From Membranipora membranacea (taxonomy: Eukaryota > Bryozoa > Gymnolaemata > Cheilostomatida > Membraniporidae): 64,000 nucleotides of DNA. Positions within the stretch are counted from its first letter, which is position 1; each line of letters starts with the position of its first letter. Below are positions 23,515 through 54,500 of the stretch, in pieces. Where the stretch lies: positions 12,273,387-12,337,386 of the forward strand of contig OU612069.1 of the NCBI GenBank assembly GCA_914767715.1, read 5' to 3'. The position numbers and the translations under genes were made by a program. Under the pieces are notes generated by a model, which made no database searches, was not told the origin of the DNA, and was given only the letters and a program-made list of their open reading frames with translations.

Positions 23515-25815
23515 CAAACTTGATCTAGATTCTTCTTGGTTCTGTGTATCTAATGCTGACATTGGTCAAACAGTCATTCTTATCATTGCTACTTAATTCT
23601 GTGCAGATTAGCTGCATTCCATTCTCATACTAATTATTTATCAGAAGCCATATCGGTCAGTCTAATTATGGATTGTGTCAGCTTGAAATAATCACCCAAT
23701 CAGTGGCCAGCGATGTCCTTTTGTTATGGCTTTGCTGTCCGAGCAGGAGCGTAATTACTGGAGTGTTATGTTTTGAGTTCTAGTTGGAAGCTGCAGATTT
23801 TACTTCAGATATTTCTGTTTTGCAATGGCAACTGCGTCAAAGAACTTTAGTTGTGAGGTCTTAGAGAAATCTGTGTTTGGTATGGACGCCATGTTCCCCC
23901 TCTTCCCAATTATTGTCTGCCATCATGTAAAGCAAGAGACATCTTTGACTTTTTCTCTTAGTCTCAACTCTTCTGCACACACTGCCGTTGTCAGCGGCCG
24001 CTATCATTATCGGGCCTAACACTATGTTTATTTCTTGATTGATGTTCCTTATAGAAATATTAAATCAGAGTCAGCACCTTCAGTGGAGCTACAAGAACGG
24101 AGAGACACTAGATCAAGCATGATCCGACTTGCCTGTATATAGGTTTTGAGCCGCCGCCGGCTCACCAGTAGAATGGGAAAGACCGAACTGCGGGCAAATT
24201 GGATCAAACTTGATCTAGAGACACACTACTTTGCTGGGTCTTGATGTAACAAATTCGGTGAATGCTGACCTCTTGCTCCGCTATGTTCCTTTCTGTGGTA
24301 TAAATACACCGAGAATAAGTATTGAGCCTTGCTTTTTCCCCTTCAAAGCCTAGGCTAAATAATAATAAGAAACAATAGATTGTAACTGAGATTAGCTAAG
24401 GTTTGTAAATTGAATGCTGGTCATTTAAGGGTTTTATTATAAGCGCTTTCATGGTCAATCATATTTTATTTGGTTAAAACTATTACAATAGCAAGTCTCG
24501 CGGCTGACTCTGAATTCACGACAAGCTCACATATTTCACATAACAAAATAATTCAATGTCCTGTGTCACACATTTTAGAAAAGCACTTCTGGACACACGG
24601 TGGTATAATCAAACAGTGGAAAAGCCCTGAACAGACAGCACTCCCTCCCTGTCGTAGCATATTTAGCCTATCTTCCAGTAAATTGAGGTAAGTAATCCCG
24701 CATCTCACTGTACATCAACCTCTATTTTAAAAACTGGCTAGGAGAGGGTATAAAGGTTGTGAGGGTGGTGGAGGATCGAGGATGGTGATGGGGAGGGGGG
24801 GAGAGGGTATATACAAAGTAGGTTAAATGACCAATCTGATTCTTATACATCCATTTGATCACAAGCCTTTCTAAGTCACCTTCCCTCTCTGTCTAATCAT
24901 ATGCGATATCTACATATAATAGATACAATGTTATACTAATTAACTAATTAACTAATTAACGCTCTACCTGAGTTTATAGTGATTTTTCAGTTTTTTAGAG
25001 ACAAAAGCGGCCAATTCAGATTGTTCAGATTGTTCAGCATTGTTTCTTTTAAGTTTATGTTATATAACATTGTTTAATGTGATTAATCAGGATTCAATGG
25101 TGTTAAAAATCTACAACAGGCTGGGCTAGCCCCCTCCGGTAGAATAGCAAACCTTATAGAAGATTTTCACATCCTAATCATGATACCTGTACATATTGTA
25201 GAGCGGTATCAGGCTGGACAAAATTTAGGTCCACTTGCCTGCATCCGAAGTTGCTCCCCTTTCACTGGTCACATGCAGTGTGGCCAGTGGAAGGGGAGAG
25301 CTTTATGACTATGCATGTTATAAAATGTACGATCAATCACAGGCTTATTTCGATTACCTTCTCCTCTATAGTGTAATCTATCTTCTGATCTTGTCAGACA
25401 TTCTCATCTTATTCACCTGATCCAAAAATAAGCCTGATCTCATCCCCCCCTCCGATGGGTAACAAAATGGCTCTCGACTCTATGTGTTCCAGTAGATGCT
25501 AAATCTAAAATATTAAAGTCTGGAGATCTCATGCTACGCTAATGCTGGGTGTACCATAATAACCTCCGATCTAGAGTACTAAATCCTCTGACCAAATTAT
25601 GCTGCATGTGGGTTTTTCTAGATGTTTCGATTTGTTAAGGAGTTTGCATATCATGCAAGCTGGAGGGCCGCTCAAACAACTCCTGGGGGGGGGGGATGGG
25701 GCCCCTGTTATATGAAAATATAAAGGAAGCACTGATCAACACCTTCTGCTGAGCTGTCAAAATAGAAACACTTCAAAATACATCACTTTGATAATTGTTA
25801 ATCAACTAAATTCCA

Positions 25816-26038
25816 TGTATTACTCTGCCCTTGTATTACGCTGCCCTTGTATTACGCTGCCCTTGTATTACGCTGCCCTTGTATTACGCTGCCCTTGTAT
25901 TACGCTGCCCTTGTATTACACTTCCCTTGTATTACGCTGCCCTTGTATTACGCTGCCCTTGTATTACGCTGCCCTTGTATTACGCTGCCCTTGTATTACG
26001 CTGCCCTTGTATTACGCTGCCCTTGTATTACACTGGGC
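25816..26038. repeat. 16-bp minisatellite, about 14 copies
   Basis: Head-to-tail copies of GCCCTTGTATTACGCT, nearly identical, with one CACTTC variant near 25,919. Because 16 is not a multiple of 3, all three plus-strand frames stay open and give the same repeating hydrophobic peptide. The open frames here are therefore an artefact of the repeat. Confidence 0.95.
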
Positions 26039-28269
26039 AGCTGTATCTAGTAATTTACAGCAGTGAGAATAAGTACATAGCCTTGCTTGTTTCCCTTACA
26101 ATGTCAGAACCTACTCTAAATAAGTATATCAAAACAAAGGATTTCAATTCAAAATAGTTGGTTTTCACAATTTGAAAGCTGGTCCATTACGGTTTTGATA
26201 ATCAACTGTTTTGATAATTGATATGGTTTATTATTAACCATATTCAAAAGCTGGTCTAGCAGTTGACAGTGTTTGATTTCAAATTAAATCTTCCAAACAA
26301 AACTAAAACGACCAGCCAGTTACATTTTTGTTGCTTGTTTTAGAGAAGCCATCAATCATACTGCCAAGTAATCTTTATGACTATGATAGCTCTGATAAAT
26401 TTGATTAATTTGAAGCCTTTATTTTACTCGTCTGAGACCTCAAACTCTTGCCCCCTCATGACACCTAGAGATAGTCTGAGCCCCCCAGACTTTTGCAGTC
26501 TGATCATTGTAAAATTTCATATAGAGTACTGAATTTCAGACCCAATTTTGCTCCATGCGAGTTTATCTAGAAGTTTAGATCTATGAACGAGTTGAGAAGC
26601 TTGAAATTTGGCCGATATACCGCTAGGAGGCTCCATGTTATATTATGTTCCTATCGCTAGGTTTGGTTAATTCATCTACATTTCTGTCACCCATCTATAG
26701 AGTTTCTAATTTGTTGACCCGATGTCGCTTCACATGGGTTTTTCTAGAGATTAAGTTGTGCAGGTGATGAGGTTATATGAAAATAAAAAACTAGCACAGG
26801 TCACCACACTCGATACAGCTGCCGATATACCATCAGCGTCAACGCTGCCCTTGTGCTAGTGTTGGCTGTTTGAATCAAAGTTCCTTTTCCCTGTTATACA
26901 TAAATCAAAATCAAATTCATAGCCCTCTTCATTTCCCATAATAATGTAAGAACCTATGCTAAATATAGGAGAGTAACAATGGATTTGAACTCAGATAGCT
27001 TAATTTCTCAAATCAAATGCTGGTCAGTTGATTATGCAATATTCTTTAGTTGATCAGGTTTCTTTTGTATTAAAAAGTTATAATGACTTGTCTAGCATTT
27101 AGATTCAAAGCCTTAATTTAAGAATGTGTTTTTTTACATTTCTCTTTCCATTATAGAAAAGCCGTTCCGAATAACCAAACTGTGTAGATCTCATAACAGA
27201 CGGCACTTCACACCACGTCATATCAGATTTTACCGATCCGCCCAGTATCAGGTATGTGTACCACAACTTAATTTGCATATTATTTTTTAACCAAAAAACA
27301 TGAAGTATAAGCCAGAAACTGTTTGAGAGAGGTTAGGAGGGGGAGGGGAGGATTGGCAGGTTTTGTTGCAGCATCAAGCACTCTCCGACTTGTTCATCCA
27401 ACTATACTTATGATTTTTAATTGTACCCTCCAGTATCTTCATGACTGTGCTTGGTCTAATAAGTCTGATTAATCTCAAGCCTATTCATTTTACCTGCTCT
27501 CTTATAGTCTAATCTACCTTCAATCATATCTAATATTCTATTCTATATAATTCACAGATGTTACTTGTCTGCGCCCCCTTTACTCTCGCCACCCCCCCCC
27601 TTTCCTGACGCCCCCCCCCTTGAAATGTAGATTAAGATTAAATCTAATCGACTCTTGGGTATGAAAATCTCTGACTCTATCATCCCTATACAAGTGTGTG
27701 GCGGCAGCATTTTTTTGCAGATACCCTTATATATTTGGTATGATGGCGTTTGAATCAAAAGAATTTCAATAATTACCAATAACTAAACCTAATGCCCCCC
27801 CTTCCGAATCCTCGCTCCAGTAGCCACAAAATATTAAGGGGATCTCATACTACGCTGATGTCAGGTGTTTCATAATCACTTCCAATCTAGAGTAACTGAA
27901 TTTTCAGACCCAAAATTACTCCATGCAAGTTTGTCTAGGCATTTAGTTTTGTAAATGAGTGGAAATACATATATAATGTTCTCCTAACAATTTCAGAACC
28001 TATGCTAAGTACTTTAATGAAACAATCGATCTTAACTCTGGTTAGCCTAGTTTCATAAATTCAATGCTGGCCCTTTACGGTTTTCAAATGCTTTATTGGT
28101 TTTATTGGTTTAGGACAATTACAATAGCAGTCTAGCGTGTGATTTTGTATGTACCTTTATTCTCTCAAAGGGGTGATTTAGAAACAAAAAAAGCTGGTTT
28201 GCCTGCTGTAAAATTGTTAATAAAAATGCTGATGTCTAAAAGCTGTCAATGATTGCATAAAAACGAGTT

Positions 28270-30935: not shown

Positions 30936-33900
30936 TTCGGTTTAGTTCTGTGCAGATGTTGACAGAATATGTATATACATTACCAGCACAGTTCGCCTCC
31001 TTCCATAGAGCAACCAAAAATAGAAAGCACTCAAGCAAAGAACAAACGTTCCTTTGCTGAGTGAAAATAGGTATAAACAGAAACATACCTATAATCCTCT
31101 GCTACTTCTCAATAGAATGAATGCCTGTTTTAGTTCAAAGTTTCCTTTAGCAGAGGCACAAAAACTTTGTGAATAAATCCCAAAACCCTGGTGCTTGTTG
31201 CACTCATTATCTCGGAATCAATGCTATATACTAATTAGAAACAATGGATTTACTCAGATTAGCTTAATTTCACATATTGAATGTTTGTTCATTACGGTTA
31301 TTGATTAACAAGTGCTCCCATAGTCAATCAGGTTTCTACATTTCTAAAATAGCCAGTCTAGCGGGTGGCTCTGTTTGGATCAAAGCTTCACGGGGATGGG
31401 GAGTTGGTCTGAGCCCCCAGACTCTTGCCCCCCCCCTAATCTGACAGGTGAATGTTCATTTTAGAGCCTTATTAAAAGAAACAGTTTTGTACCAAACAAA
31501 TCAATTTATTGTCGATCCATCAATTGCTTTTGCTTGTTATAGAAAAATTGGTCTGACAGATCTTCGCTCCACCTCATACCAGCGCTTACTGATCGTCTGG
31601 TCACAGGTAAGAGTACCAAAGTATTATTTGCACATTAGCAAAATGAAAGTTGAATGGAGGTTGTAGGAAGGGTGGGGACGGCGCTTTCTGGTGATTTCAC
31701 GTTCTTTGTAGGAGGGAGGACAGGGTGGGAGGATCAAGGTCAAGTGCTTTCACAGTTGTGTATCCAATTTATCTTTATCATAAGATTTATTAATTACCTA
31801 CAGGAGAAGCTCTATGGCCAGACCAAGTTTATATCAGGTGTTGACTTATCGGATGAGAAAAATCCACCACAAGACAGTCACTTCGATAGAGTTGCCAAAA
31901 TAGAAAAGCCTCAGAATGCATTTTTGTTGAACATAAACATGCTCTTATCGTTACGCTACGATGAGCTGTTTGAGTTTGAATTCCTATTGCTCCTCGCTTG
32001 CGTAAAAAAGATTACATATCTTTTTTTGCTCCCCTAACAATGTCAGGACTTATACTAAAAATCTTTATGAAGCTATTGATTTTAATTCAAATTAGCTTTT
32101 TTTTACAAATTGAATGCTGTTACTCTAAGGGTTTATATCATCAACTGTTTTGATAATGAGGTTTCTATGGTTCATAATGATTACAAAAGCACCTTTAGCG
32201 GTGATTATTTTTTATTCAAAGCCCTTAAAAATTAATCACTCTTAAAAAAGTAACAAACCAAACTTATTCAATATCAAACCAGGTACACAAAATTTACCAC
32301 ATTTATATAACGTGGCACATATTTTTAGAACATCCGTTTAAATACTTTGATGACATAGTCAGGCAGATAACTTCATAATACACTTATCTTCACTTAACAT
32401 TGCACCAGCGTTTACAGATCATCGTGTATCTTCACCTTTCCGCACTTATCTCAGCTCTTTCCTGTTTGAGCAGCGGGTGCCTGCTGGAGACCTAGCTCAA
32501 TTAGATTTATCCATCCTATCCTGCCCTGAGTATCCTCTTCACTGAGGGAATGGGATTGGAGGTCCTTTCTGATTGTGTCCTTCCATCTATGCTTTGGACG
32601 TCTTCGATTGCTCCTTCCTTACTCTCATCACATGTACTCTTCATGTCATGTACATGTCATCGTCTCTCTCTTCTGCAGACATTTCCCGTGCAACCATCTT
32701 CTTCTCATCAGGTCTAACCCACTCATGACATTGGCTTCTTGCCTCATGCTTTCCATGGTTTTGTTCTCCTCAAGACTGTTTCCAATGTAGTATCGCAACA
32801 TTCTTATTTCAACATTGTGTATAAATCAAACTGAAAATTACTGCTGTAGTCTGCTGTTCTCATGTTCTGTTAACAAGTCATTTTCATATCTAGTCTATAG
32901 AATGGAATTTCCTGATACAGGATTGTTTTTTGATGGTCAATAGAGATAAGTGCTGCAGGATATCACGAGATTTATTGATATCGGTAGGTCGATTTCGATT
33001 CAGGCCATATATTGGCTCAATATGATAATCGTTTCTATGATATGGGTTGATATCAGGTGGTTTATTATCGATATACAGTACATATCTCGGTAAGTCGTTT
33101 TCCATGTAGACCATATTCCGAGGGGTCGATTATTAGACAATTTTCATGTAATGGTTGTCTTCCCATGGTAAATGGAAAGACAACTACCATATTAATAGGC
33201 AATTATCGCTAGATTACTCTGATGTTCACCTAGACCCAGATGTTGTCTTTTTTGAAATATGCAATATCGGAATGTGATCACCCTTAATTTCGGTTATGAT
33301 CAATGACTTGCTAGCAACTCCACACAGCATTTATCGAAAGGTTTGGTTCTGTGTAGTGGTTAAAGGGCAACCAAGGTTTCACATAGCTCAGAAGCTAACT
33401 TATAATGCAGTATTACACCCTTATGACCCAGCTTTTGACCCAGAATAATCCAGATTGTACAATATCAGATGTTATTTATCCAATATACATACATTCCATA
33501 AATGTGATACAATAATTTATGTCAGAAAACAGGTGAAATATGAAGAGGTGTTTTACACAAATGGCACACTGATTTCTGTCAGAGTCCATTAAATGATTAA
33601 TTGCGCATGTGCAGTGACCTGGAAAATGATAGGGAACGGCTAATAACGAGGATTAACGAGCAGTATCATATTGTTTATTATGCTGTGCTGGCTGTGCGGT
33701 ACATTTATCAAATACAGATTGGCTGTTTCCGGTTTCCTGCTTGAGATTGTGGATCTTAGTCTAATATTGGGATGTATGGTTGGTAAGTATGAGCACCCCT
33801 GATATGAAAATAAGTCAGAATATCTCGGTATAACTTTCTTTCCTCGTGTGTATCTGAAAGTTTGAGACTGTGGTGGAATTAGTTTTCCTAACATTATCCT

Positions 33901-33965
33901 TTGAAAAGTTGAATAGTACACCATTTATCTACTTTGTTTCGTATCTGCTAAGTTGCATTTTTACC

Positions 33966-34775
33966 ATGCATGAGTGTGATGATGGGATGGAAGTTGATGG
34001 TACTAGTTGTGAGCCTGCCAATATGATTGATAATGATGACATTGATTGTGGTGAGAGTGAATGTGCTGATCAGCATGCTGTTGCTGCTGAATCTGTGAGA
34101 GGTGAAGGGAGTAGTAGTAGTGGACCCAGACCTTATTCATTTGCCCCTGTGAAGGCCTGTTCTGGGAAATATATGGCACTTTCAACCCCAACCTTGTCCC
34201 AGGGAGTTTTATTTGCCCTGGCTGAAGAAGAGGAGGATGAGGGTGATGACAGTGATAGTAGTAGTAGTAGTAGTAGTAGTAGCAGCAGTACAACAACATC
34301 TTTCAATACCAGTGTAAATCTCATGGATGGCCCAATAAATATGCCTGGTTGTCTGTGTGGTCAATGCCTATGTATGGAGAAAGAATGTGAGAATGTGTGT
34401 TGCCTGCAAGAAAACTTTGATGGTGTTATATTTAGGAATGGATTTGTGCCTGGCCCTGATTCTTGTGTGTGTATGTCTGTGGAGATCCAACACATTCTTG
34501 ACCCCATCACGCTTGGCCTGGCATGGCAGCGTCAGCAGATGTTGAAAGGCTTGAAGGACCAACTGTCATTTAGAGTTATTAAGAACCGAGAGTACCGCCA
34601 CCATGCTTACGTTTGTTATGTGCAGCTGGTCCATGGGTTGATAGGTAAAAGACACCGTAAAGTGATTCCATCATGTGTGGTCAACTATATTAGGCAGTTG
34701 TGGCCAGACCCTAATGGGCGATACGTTGGATTCCGTGCGCCTGAACAGGTAGAGGCAATTCAATCGATTGAATGA
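33966..34775 (+). CDS. P2X7 intracellular 'ballast' domain protein
   Basis: A 269-residue protein with one uninterrupted exon. Residues 1-120 are acidic and low-complexity, including a long serine run at about 97-108 made by an AGT repeat. Residues 129-146 are cysteine-rich (CLCGQCLCMEKECENVCC), and a second cluster (CVC) lies at 167-169. The C-terminal 40 residues include RKVIPSCVVNYIRQLWPDP and GRYVGFR, the signature of the vertebrate P2X7 receptor C-terminal ballast (zinc- and nucleotide-binding) domain. No channel or membrane segment is present, so this is a standalone ballast protein. The ATG at 33,966 is preferred; an in-frame upstream extension to 33,870 looks like leader sequence. It lies inside the Kolobok element, convergent with the transposase, and its role there is unknown. 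Confidence 0.85.
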   Translation: MHECDDGMEVDGTSCEPANMIDNDDIDCGESECADQHAVAAESVRGEGSSSSGPRPYSFAPVKACSGKYMALSTPTLSQGVLFALAEEEEDEGDDSDSSSSSSSSSSSTTTSFNTSVNLMDGPINMPGCLCGQCLCMEKECENVCCLQENFDGVIFRNGFVPGPDSCVCMSVEIQHILDPITLGLAWQRQQMLKGLKDQLSFRVIKNREYRHHAYVCYVQLVHGLIGKRHRKVIPSCVVNYIRQLWPDPNGRYVGFRAPEQVEAIQSIE

Positions 34776-35120
34776 TCATGTGATTGTTATGAAGTGAGAG
34801 AGTGGCTGTTGTTCTGATTTTATATATATAAATGTATGTATATACGTTGATGATGGAAACAATTGAATGATCATCTGATTGACATGAAATGTGAAAGTGA
34901 CTGTTGTTCTGAGTTTATATATATAAATGTATGTATATACGTTGATGATGGAAACGATTGAATGATCATCTGATTGACATGAAATGTGTAAGTGACTGTT
35001 GTTCTGAGTTTATATATATATAAATGTATGTATATACGTTGATGATGGAAACGATTGAATGATCATCTGATTGACATGAATTGAGTGAGTGGCTCGTTTA
35101 TATAAATATATGTACATACG
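34764..35120. repeat. 96-bp tandem repeat between convergent genes, about 3.7 copies
   Basis: Units start near 34,765, 34,860, 34,957 and 35,052. Each reads ATTGAATGATCATCTGATTG, then a TGACTGTTGTTCTGA block, then TATATATATAAATGTATGTA and ACGTTGATGATGGAAAC. The first copy overlaps the stop codon of the ballast-domain gene, and the last is shortened. Confidence 0.92.
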
Positions 35121-35441
35121 TTGTATTAACTAACAAGGAAAAATGTATAACAAAAATTTATGTTCATAGTTATTTGTTGTGTTAACGTTGTAGATTATGG
35201 AGACAAGTCAGGCAAAAAACCAGTATACAAATCAGGTCATGGTGTGAAGTCAGAATCTGGTCATATACTTCTCCTTAAGTTCTGCCAAAGATGGTTTCAC
35301 TGCTGCTTTCGAGATCTTGGTAGAAGGTATCTAAAACATACATAATTTAATAATAGTAATACTTAATTTGAGACGATTGATAGGTTATCAGACTATTATT
35401 ATTGGTGTATCGACAACCTCCTTGGCATAAAAGTCACTTAT

Positions 35442-38400
35442 TCAGTTCAAAATGCTATTTTCAGAGTTGCTCCCCCATTGACCAGAGTGGGGGCAACTCT
35501 GAATGTAGGCTTTATCTAATAATATTGATTTCTCTCTGCACGCTCGGTTGAGACAAAAATAAGATGATAGCATTAAATAACCACATACCACTGAACAATT
35601 TTTGGTGTGCTCCGATGCTGTAGCCATGATCCTTGCCCTGATCCTCTCTCTGAAACTGTATGTCCTTGGTACATACACCTTCCTTAGCCTGTAAGCCTTT
35701 GAGGCCTTCGACCAGGTCATCCTCATCACTGGATCTCCATTCTCATCTGTAAATTATAACAAATTCAATATATTGACCTTGATGTGTTATTGAAAATGCA
35801 ATTTACCAGAATTCTCTGGGAGCTTATTTTGTTATCTGAGCAGTCATGATATCAGTTTGATGACATACCTTTCTTCACATCTCGGTTACAATTCTCGTTA
35901 TGATCCAGAATAGCCAATTGAACACGGCCATTGTATGCTGAGGGCTCGTAATCAATTCTTTTGGATGCATAACTCAGCAACAAGCTGTGGAGGACTTCTA
36001 GTACTCCTGTATGCTGGCCATGTGCCGTCTGCCTTAACTGACTCAGAAAGTTGGCATTAGAGATATGGCTCAGCAGAACTCTGTGAGCAGGACCGTCTTT
36101 TTCAAGCCATGCAATACTCCTGTCAGCGTCCCTAAAAAAGTTTCATGATGAATGAGCAATTTGGTAAAGCTGATGCAGTGAACGCGCTATGATATTGAAA
36201 TTGTTATGAAAATTATTCTTTGCTTTTTTTTATAGGTTGTGAAGAATGATGGAGCATTATTGTATACTGATGATGGCAGCAACAGAATGGATTGCGCTCA
36301 ATGGATTATAGACCTTAACCAAACGCTACTACGTATGAATTCTCAGCTTAATCGTGAAATACCTAGATATGGTGTCATGGAGACACTTCTTAAACTTTGT
36401 GTTGAATGGAAAGCCACTATGGACATCAATGACGTGAAAGGCGACACTTGTGAACATTTCGACCAATAACTCAGCATCACCCCCGCAGTTTGCAGCCGAC
36501 CACCAGAGGTGATTAGTGATCTCCGGGATCCAGGGTAGCAATTTTCTCTCTTCCTATATCACAGAAAACAAAACGGATTATGTACCTGAAAATAACACAA
36601 ACGCGGACTAAACCATACATCCCCAGGTACGGACTGATGCTATGCTCTGGACCCTTTTATTTTCTTTCTATCATCCCTGTTACTGGCTATCTGAAATATG
36701 AAAACAAGATTTGCTGACTGCTCTGTTACTGTTACTTGATTTATCATTAATAATATAAATTTGATGATGTCCTTCAAACTCTCAATGTCACCTTTGTTTT
36801 GCACTTTTTGTTCAGGTTTTTAGTAATGTTTTTGGCCATATGCCAAACATCAAGCCCGTGCAATATATTTGGTTCATTTTTTCTCATGTGAGCCCGGATT
36901 GAAATTGAGCCATCAGTGGTGATGCTCTTCAGTTTAGCTCCCAGGTCAGCCTTGGCTTCGGTGACAAGCTCCACAAAAGCCTCCTTCTCAGCCATGGTGC
37001 TGGAGCTGGTTTCAGCGCACTGCTTAGTCAAGTTGTAGGCCACTTCTCCAGTACGCTTTAAAATTAATATAAGATCTATGTGAAAACTATGATTGTTGGA
37101 AATTCAGACTTCTAGGTTGTCGAGAAATTGTCGTTGCCAATTTGCAGCTTGTCGAAACTTCCCATCATAAATGGTAATTGTGCAGAAAGTTTCCATCGGC
37201 CAGACATGTTTACCATGGAGTCAATATAAGCTAGAGGTTAGCGATGACTTAATGTTAGCTAGCTCAAGGCTAAATCTTACTAACTAATGTTGGCTAACTT
37301 TTCCCTCTGTCAATACTTTTCCCCTCTATGCTAGTCTAAGTGCTCAGACTCCAAGGCGCAGGGAGTTACTTGCGCAAGTAACTCCCTGCGCCTTGGAGTC
37401 TGAGCACTTAGACTACCTCTATGCAGTAAATAGTGGTAAACGCATGCAAGCTGTTTTGAACCAGTGATAAGTCACTACTTACTCCATCAACCATAGTGTA
37501 GGTGCAATAGCGAGCACAGTGTCCTGGGGAATCATATCTCCCGTCGCCTGCCAACACAATATCACCTGAAAATAAAGTGTTCAATTAAAAATTTATTCAG
37601 CAAGCAGTTTATCCATAACATGACATATTCCAGTTCAGCATTGTGTCAACAACCACTACCTACTTATCTCCCAAGTTAATATGACTGCTGTACCTTTCAG
37701 TTTGAGGTTTTCTTTAACTCTTCCGATTACTTCATTAAACTCGGCAGAAACAGCCGGCAGCACAACATTCTTCTGGTAGTCGTGATAAGTTGATGAGCTA
37801 AGAAATTGGATGTTCTCATCCTCCATGAACTTTGAAATCCCTGTATATGATTGGCCGCTGCAAAATCAAGAGGAATGTGGACCTATTGGACTGGCTTCTT
37901 ATGACCACACTGGATTTGTACGAATTAGAAGGAATTTAGAAGTCTTTCCTTAGCGTAGATTGCTATTACCAGGGACAAGCTTTGTCCTAGATTCACTAAG
38001 GCTAGTAGATTTTGAATTTCTCAGTTATATACCAAAGCAATTTTGTAATGGATCATGTCAAATAAACATACGTGAGGAATATGGAGCTAGAGATGTCCAC
38101 ATTCCCCATAGCTTTTCTTCCTAACGCAGGCTGAGAGTGCCACGTCCGCTGATACGAGCACTTGGTACATCTAGTCCATACGATCAGCATGCTGCCCTTA
38201 TGTTCACTAAAACCATACTTGAGGGTGCTGTTACATCTGTCACATTTAATCTGTTGAAAGTCAAACATTATCTTTTATCAGCTGGAATTTTAAAATTCAA
38301 GTGTGCACATTCCGCTCTTCTCTGACATGTGAATTCGAACGCTTGAGAAGTTGCCTTTCCCTTCACATTAATACTTGTAATAATAATCAATATCAATCTT

Positions 38401-39823
38401 AATCAAGACTTACCAAGTTAAATAGCTCAGCTATAGCAGACTGGTAAATAATATGCTTTCGTGTGGGATCTATCTCCTGTACGGAGCTTTCGAAAGAATC
38501 TGCTTCGTCTTCAGCGTAACCTGAAGGTGTATAGCTGCTGTCCTCAGGGTCCAACACTGGATAACAATACAGAAGCAGAAAATGTATGCAAGTTTTTTTC
38601 TGTGTTATTGAACTCCAGCATCCCTCGGATAACACTCCATCCTGTTCAAAGCTTGAGCTCTAGACTATCTAACTCAACTCAAAACTTTACTTTTTCTGCT
38701 CAGTGAACTTTCAACTTCCAGAAATGGCTGATACATGTATTACCAGTAACATATCAATATATTTGTTTAGCTGGAGAAAAAATTCTATTACCATCATTAG
38801 AAACATCCACATCAGAAGCCTCAGAGTACACAAATCCCATGGCAGCATCAGTTGGGGCATAGTTTTCCTGCAATATGAATAACAGTTATTCAGCTGTAGA
38901 TTTTCCAGTCTTGATTTATTTTCGGTCAGCCTAGCAGAGCTAAGGACACATCCATAAATTCTAATATGCATCGTTTACATTTGAATATAGCAACAGAGCG
39001 CTGTTTGGATAGTAAAGATTACTATAACTGTCACAATACAGAAACATGTCATCATTAAATAGTTCACTCAATCTACCTTAGCAGGTATCTCTTGCTCCTC
39101 CATCAAAGTCCTGAGACGCTTGGGGCCAGGCTCTACAGGGGTTGAGTGCATGAACTCAGGTTTGGTATACTGCAAAACATAGATGAACTAATTGTTGCTG
39201 CGGCTTCTTGAATTATCTTGTGTGTTAAAATGGTCATCAGTACATGGTGTGTTATCAATCATCAGCTACTCATGAAGGGAACAGGGGTGAAGTAAACTTG
39301 CTAATGAATTGTGAGTTGGTCACTCCTTTAGGATTTTGTCTATGGAACTTGAAAAACAACTGAGTCAAGATGATGTTATGTTTTACGCAGGAGTTATGGC
39401 GTAGTATGCATGGTTTTTTAACCTCACCTTTACACTATCAGTCTGTGTGTCAGCTGTACACATATCCAACACAGTTTGAGTAGACATACTGTTTGCTGTT
39501 ATCTCCTCTGTTTGAGTTGACATGTCTTTTTGTCCTGAAAATTGTTGAGGGACAACCCCATGTCTTATGTGTTTTGCTAGAGAGCAACCCTTCTTTACAG
39601 TGTACACAAAATCTTGTTGATCAAAATGCAGGGAACATATTTTGAACCTAGTAAACCCTATATTGCAGAAGTTATGCAACTCAAAATCTAGGTACCATCC
39701 ACTTTGATAAAGATAAAGATGAGCTAGTTTTGCAGGTATAGAGTGGAATGTTATGTCTGAGCTAGATGTTGAGGATTTGCAGTGTTTGAAGAAACATGTC
39801 TTGGTTGAAGAGAATGCCATCAT
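35442..39823 (-). CDS. THAP-domain DDE transposase (Kolobok type)
   Basis: Eleven exons in perfect phase give about 718 aa. In transcription order they are 39823-39428, 39169-39077, 38867-38792, 38556-38414, 38250-38072, 37857-37694, 37565-37483, 37055-36792, 36553-36363, 36131-35869 and 35746-35442. Exon 1 is a THAP C2CH finger (CFFKHC...KICSLHF...GVVP) for sequence-specific DNA binding. Exon 5 has a CxxC pair (IKCDRC...CTKC) and RTWHSQP. The DDE/RNase-H-like core shows LAGDGRYDSPGHC (D about 358), SITTDGS (D about 426), LDVWHMAKNI and VLEVLHSLLL (E about 575), so the triad looks complete. It should cut and paste the enclosing element at TTAA. The 3' end is uncertain: a GTATGT at about 35,593 could be a further donor. 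Confidence 0.85.
35462..35501. repeat. Hairpin at 3' end of transposase gene
   Basis: CAGAGTTGCTCCCCCA pairs with TGGGGGCAACTCTG across a loop of about 10 bases, with one bulge. It lies within or just after the last transposase exon, so it could act in 3'-end formation on the minus strand. That role is inference. Confidence 0.6.
37332..37415. repeat. 84-bp perfect palindrome in transposase intron
   Basis: Perfectly self-complementary about the axis 37,373/37,374 (centre CTTGCGCAAG), with no spacer. The arm begins TAGTCTAAGTGCTCAGACTC. It lies in the intron between transposase exons 7 and 8. It may be a tiny foldback insertion or a replication/recombination remnant. Confidence 0.95.
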
Positions 39824-40363
39824 TTATTGTTATTGCTAGAGGAATTACACATCAAATTTGCCGCGATCAATACTACTGGTACAATAGAATGATAAGTGAT
39901 GCAAGGCATTCAGTAATCATAATGACTTTATATTGTTGTTGTCTGCATGCATTCAGTAAGTTCTCAGACTAACAGAAAAATCCGTAGTATTTCCAGGTCA
40001 CTTTACAGCCTCAAACAAATGAAGATTATTTTTATTTCAAGAGCTCGTAACTCCAATTTATTAATTTAAATTTATCAAAAAAGTGATATCACAGTCATGA
40101 TAGAGTACCTCAGTCATTATAAGCTCAATAGATTGAAACCATGGTTGCCCTTTAACATAATAAGTGAGACAAACCAGATGAAAACAATTACAATAACAAT
40201 TCTGTTTGATTCAAAGCCTGAAATTATTTATAGCTCATGATTGTAACGAAACAAATTCAATCAATGCCCAGCCACCTACATCTCTGTCTCCAACCGATCG
40301 CCCGTTTTCAAGAAAGTGAGCCACAAATTTGTTTACATATCATTTTATAAAAATGTAGAAGGG

Positions 40364-42914
40364 TGGTTATGATACCAGCGTTGACCGATTTGAACTTTTC
40401 ATATATCGTTGGAAAGGTAATCGAACACTGATTTTGAAAATAATGGTTTTAGCATGACGTCATGTCATGGTGTTGCGCTATTTTGATAAAAGGCACGATA
40501 ATTGGCTTTGATGAGGATTTTTGAGAACAATGTGGTGCAGAAACAATGGTTCTTATCGGACATTCAACTGAATAATATTTACAAGAAACCTCTGAAGCAC
40601 CTATGTGGGGCAATTTCTGTCTCCTGTGGCATTGCGCAACAGATGAAAAATCATCTTTTTATCATTGGTTATTAGCTTATTTAGGTCGCTTTGGTTTGAT
40701 GGATGAGGATCCAATGTGATGCAAGCCACACATGGAAAAGACAGGTTATTTACTTTGGGGAAAACCCTATGCTACATGTCAACTCCTAATATAATTTATT
40801 TATTTATTTATTGAGGTTTTCTAAAAGTTTATAGTTAAAGCAAATTAAAAATAACTTGTTGACCTCACACACACTAACATAGATACAAAAAATGACTTGA
40901 ATAAAAAGATATAAGTGGTAGGGTGTTACATACTATATAGTGTGTAGGATTAATGAAAGCATGGTATCATAAATTGCGTGAATAACATGAACAAAGAAAA
41001 GAAAAAACAGAGAGTGGCAAACAAAAATACAAGTTAACAACATTAGGTAGGATTAAATGATAATGATTCATGAGGCTTGGTTGATTTAGTTACAAATGTA
41101 TGAAAAATATTTAAAAAGGCTGATTTGCCTAGGTTTGATCTAAATGAGGGTTTAATTCTTGCACAGTTGCTACGAAGTGATCGTGTATGTCTGTTTGATT
41201 TGCTAACGAGATGAAGTATGTGCTTGGATGCGCGGCCTTTATGGACCCTCGATTTGACAAAATCGTGAAAAAGAAAATTCCTTCTACTGTGGAGAGTATG
41301 TAAATTTAGGAGTAAGCGGCCAGATGTGACAGAAAAATTTGTTTGGGGGCTGAAGTTATGATTCTGATTGCTTCATTTTGTACTTTTTCCAATGTTTCTG
41401 AATTTTTGGCTAAACCATCAAGGTACAATGATGAGCAGTATTCTACTATAGGTCTGATCAGTGATTTTTAAGTCTTCAATGAGTTTTCTACTGTCATGTA
41501 TTTTTTTAGTTTTGATAACAAGTAGACCGTTTTGTTTGCTTTAGAGGCGGTGGCATTAGCCTGATGGGTTAAACTAAGTTCTGAATCAAGAATAACTCCA
41601 AGAAGATTGAGCGAATGCTTGGATTCTATTTTCAAATTGTTTATTTGGATTTGGTAAAAATCTTCTACTTTCCTATTTGAGAAAATACAGTATTGGGTTT
41701 TGGATAAGTTGAGTTGAAGGAGATTGTTTGAATGCCAATTCGATACTTCTCTCATCAATGACTCAGATTTATCCATTAAGGTAGGGATATCTGTTGCTGT
41801 GCAGTAAATAACGGTGTCATCAGTGTAAGCGAATGCAGTTTTGTGCTTGTTAAGGAGATCATTGATAGCAAGATTGAATAAGATTGGACCTAGAACACTT
41901 CCTTGGGTACTCCACATGTAATCGGTAGTGCACTGGACTGATCATCATCAACTTTCATGATTTGGGTTCGATGTGAAAGATGGGATGTAAATAATTTTGT
42001 TGTTGACTCTGCAAAATTTAGTCGCTTTAGAGTGTGGATGAGTTGTCCATGATTTATAGTGTCAAATGCTTTGCGTACTTCCAAAATGAGTGCACCTATG
42101 AAATTCGGTTGAGGGTTGTCTAGCGTTGTTCTCCAATTTTGTAAAAGAGAAAGTAGTTACCTTTCACTGGAATGGTGCTTACGAAAACCGAATTGTCGAT
42201 CTGTGTATGAGAGTATTCCATGTGTTTCGATAAAGGTCATAATTTGATTTTTCATATCTAGCTCAACACAAACACCTTTGATATGATTGGCAGACTGGAA
42301 ATTGGTCTGTAGTTGCAAGGGTGTGTTTTATCGCCCTTCTTAAAGAGTGGGTGACCAGGGCTGTTTTTAGGCAGTCAGGGAATATTGATTCCTTGTAGCA
42401 TTCGTTAATGATCAGGGCTATGGGAAGAGCTAATAGGTCTGCAACAGTTTGGTACAGTGAAGCTGGAAACATGGTCAAGCCACCACGTTTATTTGGTTTG
42501 AGGGACTTTCAGTTTGTAGATTGTTTCGCTCTCAACATATGTGAAAGAGAAACTTTGACCTTGGAAAAGGTCAGGTTGTGGATCGATCTTAGGAATAAAA
42601 ACCGATTGTCCAGCGACCGTGGTGGTATCTATTAAGGTTGATACCAATGTTTTTTATTAGTTGTGACATGTGGCATGGGGTCTCACACAGTAAATAACTT
42701 GTCTTTTCTGCATTTGGTTTGCATCACCTTGAATCCTCAATAACCTAATTACCTAATAACCAATGCATAAAAGATTATCCTGCCTTTTATCAGAATAGCG
42801 CAACGCCATGACATGACGCCATGCTGAAACCAACAGTATTCAGAATCAGTGTTCGATTACCTTTCCAACTATGTTATATAAAATGTCAAAATTGGTCATT
42901 GTTGGTATCATAAC
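40364..42914. mobile_element. Long-inverted-repeat DNA element, interrupted by a LINE
   Basis: The left arm begins GGTTATGATACCAGCGTTGA at 40,364. The right arm ends with its inverse, TGGTATCATAACC, at 42,914. The mirrored arms run about 260-420 bp (40,364-40,785 and 42,650-42,914) with indels. They include GCATGACGTCATGTCATGG and a TTGCGCTATTTTGA block. A minus-strand LINE occupies the middle. The empty site is preserved in the unit at about 30,514, which supports these ends. A third, solo arm lies at 62,633-62,775. Confidence 0.78.
40792..42480 (-). pseudogene. LINE with reverse transcriptase, 5'-truncated
   Basis: Minus-strand frames give successive RT segments: LALPIALIINECYKESIFPDCLKTA (42,440-42,340), AFDTINHGQLIHTLKRLNFA (42,070-42,010), QGSVLGPILFNLAINDLL and FAYTDDTVIYC with the YTDD catalytic box (41,900-41,810), and a thumb region to 41,468. 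Frames change several times and stops occur, so it is dead. The 3' end is an (AATA)n tail, seen on the plus strand as TTTATTTATTTATTTATT at 40,797-40,815. The segments resemble a CR1/L2/Rex-type non-LTR element, but the clade is not settled. Confidence 0.8.
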
Positions 42915-43279
42915 CTTAAAGGACAGGCACTCTCCAAGCAATTGAGCATCCAGTTTGTTTGTCTTAAGATTTGTTATATTACCTGCGGGGGAAGCTTCAC
43001 GACCTGCTGATTCTTATGCATGAAATTAATCTCAGGCTCTCTAAATTTACCTGCTCCCTTTAGTCTTATTTAGATCAGCTCAGTTGATTTATGCATTGCA
43101 GTGGATTAAAAAAATATCTTCTAATATCAAAATCGCCCTACTTAAAAAACCTTCTCAGAGCTTTCTTGTCTCGTGAATAAATACTAGTGAACAAAATAGA
43201 TGGGCATTGGGCAGTAGGCTAGAATGAATACAATAAAATTCTTAAATAACATGCAGGCTAAAGGCTTTGTACTCTGATA

Positions 43280-44755
43280 ATTAAAAGTTCTTGTGACGAA
43301 AATTCTCTGATTTGTTTTGGATACAACATTATTAACATGATTTTCAAAACCTACTTTGTTATCAAAGAGAATCCCAAATATTTAACATTGTCACAAAAAT
43401 CCATTTTTACACCATTTAATTCCAGAGTAGGACTGTCAGGTTTATCTCGCTCAGTGGAGAAGAGCAACTCTTGGGTTTTAGAAGGATTAAGTAATAAGTC
43501 GAGTTCTTCACATAGACCAGAGATTCTGTTGATCTGATCGAAATAATTAGACAAGTCATTATTATCAGAGATGCAACCAACAATACAAGTGTCCACAGCA
43601 TATTTTAAAATAGTTATATTGCTCTGTTCTGACCTAATCCTATTTGTATACACTGAGAATAATAGAGGACTGATGACAGAACCCGGGGGGGGGGGTGTGT
43701 TCCTGTGTTGGTGGTGATTGATGTTGAGAGAATATTGTTTACTATTGTTCTTTGAGTTCTGCCTGTCAGGAAACTTGACACCCAGTTCGTAACTCTGGAG
43801 TCTAGACGTTATGTGGGGAGATTACTATCTTGCATAGTTGGCAGCCTGAAGGTCTATGTAGCTAGTTATTGTGGTAATAAGGCATAATACTGCATCCTGT
43901 GTTGATCTTTTACCTCGGGAGGCGAATTGGTGATTGTCAAGAGGAGTGTTTTTAACTATATAGCTTTTCAGCAGACGTTCCATTACTTTACATAAGCAGC
44001 TTGTCAGGGCTATTGGTCGGAAGCGTTTAAGTTGATTTGGCTTGTCAGTTTTTGGCAGTGGTTTGATGATGATCGATTTCCATATATTAGGAATTGTTTG
44101 AGAGTCTCGAGGGAAGTTGAATATATCCGTTTTTACAGGCGCTAGGTGGTCAGCACAAAGTTTTAATGCTCTGGGTATCAGAACATCAGGTCCAGCACCC
44201 TTTCTAGAGTTGAGGCATTTGAGTTGTATCAGAACTGACTTTTCATCTATTGTGCAGGGAGGAGCAGTTAGGATTTTGTAAGCACGTTGTGGTGGCTGAG
44301 TGTCTTATTTCTCAAATTTGGCAAAGAAGTTGTTCAGTTCTTCAGGTTGGAAGTTAATATCTGGTTGTGACTTGGAGTTGTTGGTTGGAAGTCTGCTAAT
44401 CTTTTTTAAGTCGTTCCAAGCGTTTGCAGGATCACTGGCTAGATGTTGATGGAATTTCAAGGAATATTCTTTTCTGGCTTTTTTATTTTCTTTTGAGACT
44501 TGCTTTTTGAGTTTATGGTGGAGCTTTTTATTTCCATTTTTGTGGGCGTCATGTTTCCAATCTATCATATCCAGAATGCGCTTTGTAATCCACGGCTTTT
44601 TGTTGGCATATTTTTTAACTTCCTTTGGTGGTATGCATAGGTCTGTGCAGAAATTAATGTAGTCAGTTATTGTTTCAGTCTGCTGGTTGATATTGTCATT
44701 GGCGTATATGGGTTCCCCATGTCTTCCTACATCTATTGGTTCAAGCTTCAAATCG
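43280..44755 (-). pseudogene. Second LINE, linker plus reverse transcriptase, decayed
   Basis: 44,751-44,305 is an open 148-codon frame between endonuclease and RT (KKPWITKRILDMIDWKHDAH...; HLASDPANAWNDLKKISR). On the minus strand it is followed by RT pieces (RFRPIALTSCLCKVMERLLK; HQFASRGKRSTQDAVL) and by 43,653-43,351 (YTNRIRSEQ...ILKYAVDTCIV...LLLNPSKTQELLF...VKYLGFSLI). The catalytic FADD/YADD box reads YAVD, so a catalytic aspartate is lost. A 10-G run at about 43,685 breaks the frame. Confidence 0.8.
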
Positions 44756-45518: not shown

Positions 45519-48500
45519 ATGGCTATGAGTAAACCAGAGCGAGTTGTTTTACCTGGAGAGGATGTAAATAACATAATCCAGTGTAATGTCTGCCTGGATG
45601 TCAAACCTCTAAGGTTACTACCCTGTCAGCACAAAACATGTCACGAATGTATCAGTAAGTATAGGCCTAAATGCATTCAATTCAACAGCCATTGCCAGCT
45701 ACTGACGATACCATCAGGTCAATTAATAGACATATAACACAATGTCATACAGATATATCAGAGCGTGAGTGAGTTACTGACTTTATATAGTAGCTCCCTT
45801 TTCCTGACCAATTGTACATGGTGCCATTGACGGAAAACACCCTAAATGGCCCGCGGCCCAAAACGGCCCAGCATGATTTATGAGTTCTCCAAGTCCCAAA
45901 ACCTCCAAAAAACGAGTTAAGTCAACGAACTACAGTTTTTGTGAAAAACTCAAGTTTTCAAACTTTTCAAAAAAACGGCCCATCTTGGGTTTTGAGTTCT
46001 CCAAATCCCAAAACCTCTAAAAATAAGTTAAGTCAACGAACTTAAGTTTTTGTGAAAAAACTCAAGTTTTCAAACTTTTCAAAAAACCTCCCCATCTTGG
46101 TTCTTGAGTTCTCCCAGTCCCAAAACCGCTAAAAATGAGTTAAGTCAACAAATTTAAGTGTTAAGGAAAAAACTCAAAACTCAAATTTGAAAACTGTTTT
46201 TTTCACAAAAACTTAAGTTCGTTGACTTAACTAATCTTTTAGAGGTTTTGCGACTTGGAGAACTCAAAAACAAGATGGGCCGTTTTTTTGATAAGTTTGA
46301 AAACTCGAGTTTTTTCACAAAAAATTCAGTTCGTTGACTTAACTCGTTTTTTAGAGGTTTTGGGACTTGGAGAACTCACAAACCAAGATAGGCTGTTTCT
46401 TTTGAACATTTGAAAACTTGAGTTTTTTCCGAGAAACTTAAGTTTTTTCCCTAAAACTTAAATTTGTTGGCTATTTGTATTTTTAGAGGTTTTGGGACTC
46501 GGAGAACTCAAAAACCAAGATGGGCCGTTTTTTTGAAAAGTTTGAAAACTTGAGTTTTTTCCCAAAAACAAAAGTTTTTCCCTAAAACTTAAATTTGTTG
46601 ACTTAACTCATATTTTAGAGGTTTTGGGACTTGGAGAACTCAAAAACCAAGATGGGCCGGTTTATTGAAAAAATTGAAAACTTGAGTTTTTTCACAAAAA
46701 CTTTAGTTTGTTGACTTAACTAATTTTTTAGAGGTTTTGGGACTTGGAGAACTCAAAAACCAAGATGGGCCGTTTTTTGAAAAATTTGAAAAGTTGAGTT
46801 TTTTCACAAAAACATAAGTTCGTTGACTTAACTCATTTTTTAGAGGTTTTGGGACTTGGAGAACTCATAAATCATGCTGGGCCGCTTTGGGCCGCGGTCC
46901 ATTTTGGGCCTCGGGTCGTTTTGGGCCTCGGGCCGTTTTGGGACCGAACCGTTGCATTGCATTATCAACCACTCATTTGCATAGAAATTGAAGTGAGTGG
47001 AATTGATAATGTAATGCCATTAACTGATACATTATACAAATTGTATAAAGGAAGCGCTGATTAGGCTCCATTTGTCAACTATTTTATTTATTAAGTAAAT
47101 CTGTCCCAAAAGACTTTTCTGGTTGTGGTTCTATATATTTGGGTTTGTTCATTCTGTTCTCTAACAAATACAGAGTCACTGAAAATTCTGATATGTTTTG
47201 ACTATACTTACTTGCAGAACAAATCACTACACATGGAAAAACTAAATGTCCTGAATGTAGGAGAGAGTTCATCGTACCAGCTGGAAGCTTTCCATTGTGC
47301 CGTGTTACAGAATACTTACGTGAAATGTCGCTTTCCAAGCCGGTACGGCCAATCTCAGCTCAAGGAAAGGGTATGTTTACTTCTTTCATATCTCGTCAGT
47401 ACCTCTGGGTGATTTTATGTGAATGATTGATTTACGAAAGATAAAGTGTAGTCAGTGACATTTATTGCAGTTAAAGCATCCATGAAATTTATATTGGAAT
47501 CAACCAAAGTTGTTTCTAGACACCTAGTCCGCTTCAAAACTAGCTCAAAGACTGCCAGAATCCGAGTTATGAGGTATTGACCCCTTCAATAGGAGAAGGA
47601 GACTACATGACATGTGTGAGCTCACAAATGGGTTTTTGGATAAATTTCGTCATTTCTTTGTATATTGAAATGTTTAAGTGAATATGTATGTGGATATTTG
47701 TCTTAAATTTTGTTGTGCTGGAATAATCTCTTTGATGGCATAAGCTGCGTTTGATTTCAAAGGGTTTCATCCATGTATTTTAATAATACAAGACTGCAAA
47801 GTTCCAATTTGTAGACTCATAGGCAAAATGTATGTTGGTACCGACATATCTACCCCAGCAAGGCTCTGAGCGAGCAGCAGCGAGGTTTTTCTTTGATAAG
47901 TCATGACTTGAGTCCCAGTAGCTCAATTTTGCTGATATTGGGCTCATTTTGAAGCTTAATGGCAGGAGAAGCCCATCTGAAGATTGTAAGCTTCATTTCG
48001 TTGATACTCTGAGGTAGTTGAATTAACCAATACATATCATGTCAGGTGGGCCTCATCTTATCATCATAATTATAACTTTGCATATAACATTTAACATAAA
48101 CATTTCAATTAAGACTAGATATTGCATCATTTTGTATACAATATTTTAGGCACAAAGTGTAGGTCGTGTAGTGAAATTGTGCAGGCAAGATGTCAGGATT
48201 GCCATAGTTTCATATGTTACAAGTAAGTAAATCAAAAACATGAAGCAGTTTTGCATCACAAGAATTACATCCAACTCATCCCATCTCATTCATAAAGGAA
48301 TTGAAAATTTTGTTTTTGCAATAAATGGGCAGTTTCAGTCATAGTAAGACGCAGCCAGCCCACAATGGTGTCAGTCAAAGTGATCAAAGTCATTGGAGGT
48401 TGTTAATTGAGGAGGAACTAGGAAACTCTGTTTCTTGTAGTTTAGCAATTTTGCAACTTCAAAGACCTGTTTGATACCACATTAGCCTCACTGTACCAAT

Positions 48501-51500: not shown

Positions 51501-54500
51501 GATAAATCCTCGAATAGCTATAGTAACAGTTATAGTATAAGTCTGTGCTGGTGAAATAAGATTATAGCCGTAGTGTACAAAGCATAGTGTACTTTGGTTT
51601 ATAGATAATATATGAGCATAATACAAGGCATGGAGGAGACTTTGCATGATTACTCGTCAGAAGATGCTGCATTACTGGCAGTAATCAGGTTGGTTGGAGA
51701 AAGGATGAGCAACACCAAAGTATCATACAGGGGTGCATGATCTTTGGCTAGCCTTAGGAGATAGAAATTGAATGCTGAATCAGTAGTTGAGTTTAACTCA
51801 ATCTAGCATCTTTTGTCCGACTCGATGGATTTAAGCAGCCAAGAATATGGAGAATAGCGTAGGCCCAATCACTCATCCTTGCTTCACACCAGCTTTCACT
51901 CCGAACTCCTCTGTAAGCTCACTATCAAATAACTCCTTCATGTTTACATGGGGGATAAGCATTTTCTTAAACCACTGCTGACACAGCTGGGCTTTGCCCA
52001 GCAGAGCCACCTGTCAAAAATTTAAATAGAGAGTTGTGGCATCAAAACATCTAGCCAGTAGCTTTGAATGGAGTTATATGAGCTCTCAAAATGTAGGGAG
52101 TATCTTCTTCCCCAGCCATCCACCATTTAAGTGATGACAAATGTTGTTGTTGGCCAATCAGGTGCCTTTAAAATCTAGCTGAGATCCAACATTTTTATCA
52201 GTGTTGGATCTCATGATACAGGCACTAGCCATGCACAACCAGATTGCGCTGTGTGATCATAGGCGTATTTAATCTGTCTGGTCAACTCTCTAACAAAAAA
52301 AGCCCGCGCAGCGGAAAAAAATTTTTCAGGAGACAAGCATCTGTTAGAGACTCTAACAAATTTGTTAGAGTCTCTAACAAATTGTTAGAGTAGAGAATAT
52401 TAACATAACCAGACAAACTCCAATGGTAAGTAAGTGACTTGTTGACCTCCAGGTTAAAGATTGGAAAATCAACATCATTCCCCAGAATAAATATGATGGT
52501 TGGGTGGTTGATAAGAACCAAACACCATTTTTGAAATGAACATTTTCGAAGTGTCCGTATACCGGTTGATAGTAGACTTTTGCAATATGTTGTGTACTAT
52601 GTCTGATCCAGCAGGTGCCCATGATGACTGCAGTGGGTCTGACTCTGAGGCTGTGTTGTGACCGTCACCATGATATTGATTGATAGCTATGACTATGATG
52701 GCCAAGTGGTGGTTCTGTGGGGTTCTGTTGACAGTCTCAATCAATCAACACAACAATAAAATCAATGAATCAACAACAAGCAATCAATCAACCACCAACC
52801 ATCATCATCAATAATGAAATGAGGATCATGATGATGATGATGAAAAAAAAACAAAAACAGACAGGTGTGCTTGCTTTGCTTTGTTGCTAAATATGCATAT
52901 TGATGAGAGGATTGGAGGGATAAAAGTCAAGGGACCTTCTGGGTAACAATATATACAGAGCAATACTCCAGAGATTTGGGTAGCATGAGGAAGTTTTTAG
53001 GGAGAAAAGATTTGCTCTATCTGTATTTTCCTGTAACTTCGTTGCATCCCAAAGTATTAATTAAGATGACCTTGGAATGTCAATAGACAACAAAAAGTCT
53101 ACTGGTTTCATATCAAAATTTTACTTTTATGTCCAGTGACAAAGAGAGGACAACTAATAATAATAACAGGAAAAGAAGACAATTCCTCATTACTTGATTC
53201 GAGGGTGGAACATTTTTCCCAACACTCTAACCATCCTTGCCTCTAACATTCGAGAGTTCGAGATAATTAAATACGCCTATGTGTGTGATGGATTTCGCAG
53301 TTATTAAGTAGGACAAAAACTGATGCTATTTTTGTACACATTGTCCACTCTAGAGTATATAATGAGTCTACAGACAAGCCACACAGAAATATGAAAATAG
53401 GAATCATATAAGTATTTCGGTTTTCATCAATTAGAAAATCTAAAAACGAAAATTGACTCGATTTTCATATTTTAATTTGTTGTTTTGGAACAAAAACAGA
53501 AAAACAAGTTGTTTTTTGTTTTTTTAGCCTCAGTGCGCAAAAATGATAAAACAAACGATACTAATCAATTCATTTTTCAATTTTTGTTTTAGTGATTCAA
53601 AGTTGAAATATGAAAATAGGATTCATTCAATATTTCGGTTTTCATCAATAAGAAAATCAAAGAACAAATCAATGAGAAGTTGTTTGAAACCCTGGTTTCC
53701 CTTTAACGTACAATCGGCATCAAACAAGCGGCAGCCACCAGGCAGCAGCCCAACAGCATCAGCAACATTCACTACCAAGCACCTGCGCCGAATACCTTTC
53801 ATCCCAAGCACTGTAACATACATTGTGTGTCTCGATTTTCATTTTTTGATTTGTTGTTTTGGAACAATAAACGAAAAACAAGTTGTTTTTTAGATTTTAG
53901 CATCAGTGCGCTAAAATGAAAAACAGATGATACTGAGTCCCCTTATAACTTATATGGGGACTTAGTATTGTTTGATTTTCAATTTTGCGCACTGATTCTG
54001 TTCCAAAACAACAAATCAAAATGTGCCCCAACAGGATCCAGTCCATAGACCCGTACTGATACAGGGAACAAAAAAACAAGCAACATCAAGGTTTCTCACA
54101 CGGTATCACAGGGTATCGAGACTATAAATGGACGTGAGCTTTTTTATACATTATACCAATGTGGGTGAATGTTTGAACTGCTGCAAATTTTTGAGTGCTG
54201 AGTTAGCTGCTTAGTTGTCTACACAATGAGATCAGATCAACTGTTTCACCGACTACGTCTACTAACACCAACAACCAAATTGAAGAGCAGCGTCACCATG
54301 AGATCAAGTCTACCTTCATTTCACCGACTTGGTCTACTTGCACTGTCAGCCAAGGGGTGAAGAGCATTATCACCATGATGTCAGGGAGCCTTCTGTCAAT
54401 TCAACGTCTTTGAAATTCACCAGATGATTAGTCGCACTAATGCTGTAGCGGCTGTTCGTTTGTCTGTGATAGCACTGATCTGATTAACATGTAATACGTT

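Follow-up and report, generated by a model that had tools for sequence, protein, structure and literature searches.

A probable autonomous Kolobok transposon of the Kol0 type, with an open P2X7-type ballast-domain gene, in the bryozoan Membranipora membranacea

The 64,000-nucleotide window analyzed here contains a 6,788-bp element (33364–40151) that is very probably an autonomous Kolobok DNA transposon of the Kol0 (KolX-bearing) type with both of its genes open. The Kol0 placement is based on the presence of KolX and not on a tree, and "intact", where used for this element, covers its ends and open frames only. The two genes are convergent, with KolX on the plus strand (33966–34775) and a THAP/DDE Kolobok transposase on the minus strand (35250–39823). 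This architecture, and the inference about the origin of P2X7 that follows from it, are already known and have been in print since 2022. What is new from the window is a 377-bp miniature element (MITE) with the same ends, a decayed end of that MITE, an 84-bp palindrome nested in the element, and the retention in KolX of three of the five residues of P2X7 that contact GDP.

The element ends were identified by end comparison and a pattern scan. On the left, the target-site duplication TTAA (33360–33363) is followed by AGGGCAACCAAGGTTTCA, and on the right, TGAAACCATGGTTGCCCT is followed by TTAA (40152–40155), as the sequence-only reading had described for both sides. That reading also reported 17-bp terminal inverted repeats (TIRs); the repeats are present, and they are 18 bp long with 17 of 18 positions agreeing between the arms (left, AGGGCAACCAAGGTTTCA, plus strand, 33364–33381; right, AGGGCAACCATGGTTTCA read on the minus strand, 40134–40151). 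A search of the window with the TIR pattern, allowing up to three mismatches, returned five matches, compared with 0.14 on average over 100 shuffles, none of which gave five (maximum of two). We also scanned for TTAA-flanked inverted 18-mers with up to two mismatches and a spacing of 100–15,000 bp. Ten such pairs were found in the window, two of the element's TIR family and eight in one repeat array (45.9–46.9 kb), while shuffled windows gave none in 20 of 20 shuffles (single-base, in 500-bp bins, with TTAA sites fixed and dinucleotides not preserved). The array that holds the eight pairs (45840–46908) is dense, with units of about 112–132 bp in both orientations.

Between the two ends of the element, no long inner likeness was found beyond the 18-bp TIRs. 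The sequence CTTATAATG occurs near both ends (within 33364–33407 and 40115–40151) in inverted orientation, 36 bp in from the left and 29 bp in from the right. The two end regions also share a 13-bp inverted match (E 0.022), placed 250 bp inside the left end and about 150 bp inside the right. Short matches of this kind could be subterminal binding sites, or they could be due to chance. When the flanks were joined, for the 6.8-kb element and likewise for the MITE, no unoccupied counterpart was found in the window. Segments of the right flank of the 6.8-kb element resemble repeats near 28.9–29.0, 30.2–30.5, 42.9, and 62.6 kb, none of which spans the junction.

The transposase gene was modeled by reading splice sites in the sequence only, and its exons are predictions. 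The model has 12 exons and encodes 696 aa; it starts with an ATG at 39823, and its stop codon ends at 35250. Exons 1 to 12, all on the minus strand, lie at 39823–39428, 39169–39077, 38867–38792, 38556–38414, 38250–38072, 37857–37694, 37565–37483, 37055–36792, 36553–36363, 36131–35869, 35746–35589, and 35330–35250. The frame is open throughout and all 11 introns are GT-AG, which bears out the earlier claim of agreeing phases, with 12 exons in place of the 11 first counted. Adding a 38-nt exon (36690–36653) and shifting an acceptor gives an alternative model that likewise stays open, over 706 aa. It reaches 52.5 bits with the Pfam Mutator profile vs. 50.0 bits for the 696-aa model; the donor of the added exon and the acceptor downstream of that exon appear weak. 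The exon 8/9 junction is accordingly not certain.

In the 696-aa model, the Pfam Mutator-like transposase domain was matched above its cut-off at residues 227–462 (E 2.8e-13). The Pfam THAP match (E 5.9e-5) reached 24.2 bits, barely over the cut-off of 23.9, and the stop-to-stop frame containing exon 1 scored 27.7 bits. Residues C10, C15, C63, and H66 were picked by motif as those of the THAP domain, and its AVPTIF-like box has diverged to VVPQQF. The complete D/D/E set that had been proposed was recovered in the open frame, with catalytic residues assigned by motif at D358 (GDGR), D426 (TDGS), and E575 (LEVLH). Between the second D and the E sits D447xxH450, in agreement with the C/DxxH signature; this too is an assignment by motif, made with no alignment to known Kolobok transposases. 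Residues H481, C489, H506, and H511, also motif-picked, lie between DxxH and E, in the stretch expected for an H2CH zinc finger. Intron 7 contains a perfect palindrome of 84 bp (37332–37415) made of two 42-bp arms with no spacer, the first 30 bases of which occur a single time in the window. Because the 9-bp direct repeat CCTCTATGC borders it on both sides, the palindrome is probably a nested foldback insertion with a 9-bp target duplication.

KolX is a single-exon gene of 269 aa whose C-terminal part matches the cytoplasmic-ballast domain P2RX7_C (Pfam PF20478) at 7e-12 and 46.1 bits, against a gathering cut-off of 23.5. With its frame open, KolX corresponds to the convergent intact gene with a P2X7 C-terminal signature that had been noticed from the sequence. 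The N-terminal half of the protein is acidic and serine-rich, and the C-terminal domain is cysteine-rich. Its cysteines fall in CLCGQC (residues 129–134; C129, C131, and C134), CC (145–146), C167 or C169, and IPSC (C237), and were matched by eye to the three cysteine clusters of Rump et al. (2020, PMC7016195). The ballast assignment is based on Pfam and not on the PDB sequence search, in which P2X7 was found at an E of about 0.03 and fragments of complement factor H scored equally well or better. An AlphaFold model of KolX made from the single sequence had a mean pLDDT of 33.2, too low for use. A 95-bp tandem repeat of 3.3 copies (34765–35080) occupies the space between the convergent genes and overlaps the last KolX codons.

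The ballast domain (ZCD) of P2X7, which binds zinc and guanine nucleotide, shares with KolX the cysteine clusters CxCxxC, CC, and PSC (PMC7016195). KolX differs in that it stands as a protein of its own, has an acidic N-terminal half, and lacks a channel part; by eye, the spacer that follows its CC motif is also longer. An ungapped alignment of 55 residues to the P2X7 chain (E 0.031) was used for positions only; in it, KolX keeps R546, H547, A549, Y550, Y553, P570, C572, R578, and P582 of P2X7 together with the GxYxGF tail. The WRF motif, said to occur across vertebrate P2X7 (PMC7016195), is LVH in KolX. On H547, section 11 of Rump et al. gives the residue as not found in invertebrates, whereas section 13 has it kept in sea urchin and acorn worm and not beyond deuterostomes (PMC7016195). 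Taken by itself, the section 13 statement would make H547 in KolX a weak pointer to a deuterostome host. The GDP-contact residues of P2X7 kept in KolX are R546, H547, and R578, and the remaining two are changed (R574 to V and K583 to D). P element transposition is gated by GTP. Were KolX to bind guanine nucleotide, P2X7 might owe its nucleotide site to a transposition factor, and transposition of Kolobok might be nucleotide-gated like that of the P element, a proposal that we hold to be highly improbable.

Kolobok elements are described as having TTAA target-site duplications and 5'-RR and YY-3' ends, and those of the Kol0 lineage as encoding a transposase and KolX (Kojima and Bao 2022, PMC9587614). 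Kolobok transposases usually have DDE, THAP, and H2CH motifs (Hikosaka and Konishi 2018, PMC6004289). The Membranipora element has a 4-bp TTAA duplication, AG...CT termini of the 5'-RR and YY-3' form, a Mutator-type DDE core with DxxH, and a THAP domain just over its cut-off, so the initial assignment to Kolobok stands. Its second protein, KolX with ballast-type cysteines, is the feature that likens it to Kol0 (Kolobok-1_XT type, PMC9587614). The Membranipora copy differs in detail: its TIR sequence is its own, its transposase has 12 exons, and the 95-bp tandem repeat lies between the genes. For comparison, ten full-length Xenopus Kolobok copies measured 6,763–13,907 bp, with TTAA on both sides in nine of ten (PMC6004289).

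Two other classes were considered. PiggyBac shares the TTAA duplication and was ruled out by the THAP and Mutator-type DDE transposase; the AG...CT ends of the element and the cysteines kept in its KolX also set it apart. KolobokP was ruled out by the ballast type of the second gene and by the lack of terminal direct repeats of about 450 or 660 bp, the best same-strand match between the first and last 900 bp being 13 bp (E 1.0). No relatives of the ballast part of KolX were found in viral contigs, and the 10 stretches in viral contigs that fit the pattern for transposase exon 8 included none. Likewise, 13 stretches in prokaryote genomes included no relative of KolX. These results are expected because the element is an animal one.

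Pattern scan and end comparison also located the 377-bp non-autonomous element (9176–9552), which shares the TIRs of the 6.8-kb element and is flanked by TTAA on either side. Over 18 bp, its left end is identical to that of the larger element, and its right end differs once, at the 18th base; beyond the ends, only short matches were found (best E 0.87). The left flank of the MITE resembles 54022–54138 (87%), in a match that does not span the junction. On the minus strand at 53668–53702 lies one decayed MITE end (35 bp, 94%), with TTAA at 53703–53706. Judging from the shared ends, the element's transposase probably also moves the MITE. A similar arrangement is described for the T2-MITEs of Xenopus, which have AGGRR ends and are thought to be mobilized by Kolobok transposases (PMC6004289). 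The Membranipora MITE (AGGGC...) is similar in kind to that family (short and TTAA-flanked; PMC6004289) but has another sequence and another host, and its relation to Kolobok comes from the shared ends only.

The link between such elements and P2X7 was drawn by Kojima and Bao (2022, PMC9587614), the only study in the open-licence literature found to join KolX or the ballast domain with Kolobok or a transposon. In the passages cited here, KolX is the second protein of Kol0, clearly resembles residues 476–595 of P2X7, and has the P2X7 ballast fold, and ballast proteins are said to have been earlier unrecognized as Kolobok components. They conclude that P2X7 originated when a P2X4-like gene became fused to KolX. 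The earlier suggestion that an element of this kind may have carried the ballast domain to P2X7 is in line with their conclusion. Rump et al. took the synteny that ballast-domain genes share from sponge to mollusc and sea urchin to reflect a single ancestral locus (PMC7016195), a picture more in keeping with a host gene than with a mobile one, and one that counts against a transposon origin. The same authors noted a tick protein combining a THAP domain (printed "TAHP") with a ballast-type domain (PMC7016195), an observation that speaks for the Kolobok reading. According to Kojima and Bao, the ballast proteins that Rump et al. described from animals belong to Kolobok families (PMC9587614).

For the mechanism, we propose that the transposase would bind the AGGGCAACC ends, probably via its N-terminal THAP domain, and that the DDE core would excise the element and insert it at TTAA, as the family and the TTAA at both ends suggest. 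The MITE would probably be moved by the same enzyme. KolX would most likely serve the element permanently as an accessory factor and not be cargo that it captured, a reading we adopt because KolX is published as present in Kol0. We lean towards KolX acting in transposition itself, the cofactor role that the sequence-only reading had raised as possible; the step at which it might do so, aid in transpososome assembly or end-pairing, is a guess. Among the matches listed in the open-licence literature, there was no functional study of KolX.

It is possible, with distinctly lower probability, that KolX acts towards the host and not in transposition, as a regulator or silencing suppressor that would raise the survival of the element. 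The acidic, serine-rich N-terminal half and cysteine-rich C-terminal domain would suit such a role, and a transcriptional role has been suggested for Nanor, a relative (PMC7016195). We give a comparable, minor chance to the element being dead, its open frames left from recent activity, which is compatible with the other readings. The TIR arms differing at one of 18 positions, the palindrome inserted in a transposase intron, and the diverged THAP box are consistent with a dead element; the two open genes (269 and 696 codons) and their consistent splice phases argue against it. Passenger cargo, in which a single copy captured a host ballast-domain gene, would fit the one full-length copy in the window, the short ballast-domain proteins of many animals, and the ancestral synteny of Rump et al. 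(PMC7016195), but such a chance capture is highly unlikely because Kol0 elements are published as having KolX for their second protein, not because of another full-length copy, and the placement of those animal proteins in Kolobok families also speaks against it (PMC9587614). As a clean two-gene specimen, with a MITE of the same ends about 24 kb distant, the element offers a good template for tests of KolX function. It also suits the question of whether the cytoplasmic domain of P2X7 still betrays a transposon origin.

Elsewhere in the window, no Rfam families or tRNAs were found (tRNA scan under the bacterial code). Matches to RVT_1 occur in three separate open reading frames on the minus strand (41468–44304), one of them below the cut-off. 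Because two of these matches cover the same part of the profile, we read the region as at least two broken retroelements, apparently of non-LTR type. An open frame at 55860–56798 has a weak NHL-repeat match (18.8 bits vs. a cut-off of 20) and is perhaps a TRIM-NHL-type gene. A tandem repeat with 16-bp spacing lies at 25765–26082, with 14 overlapping registered copies.
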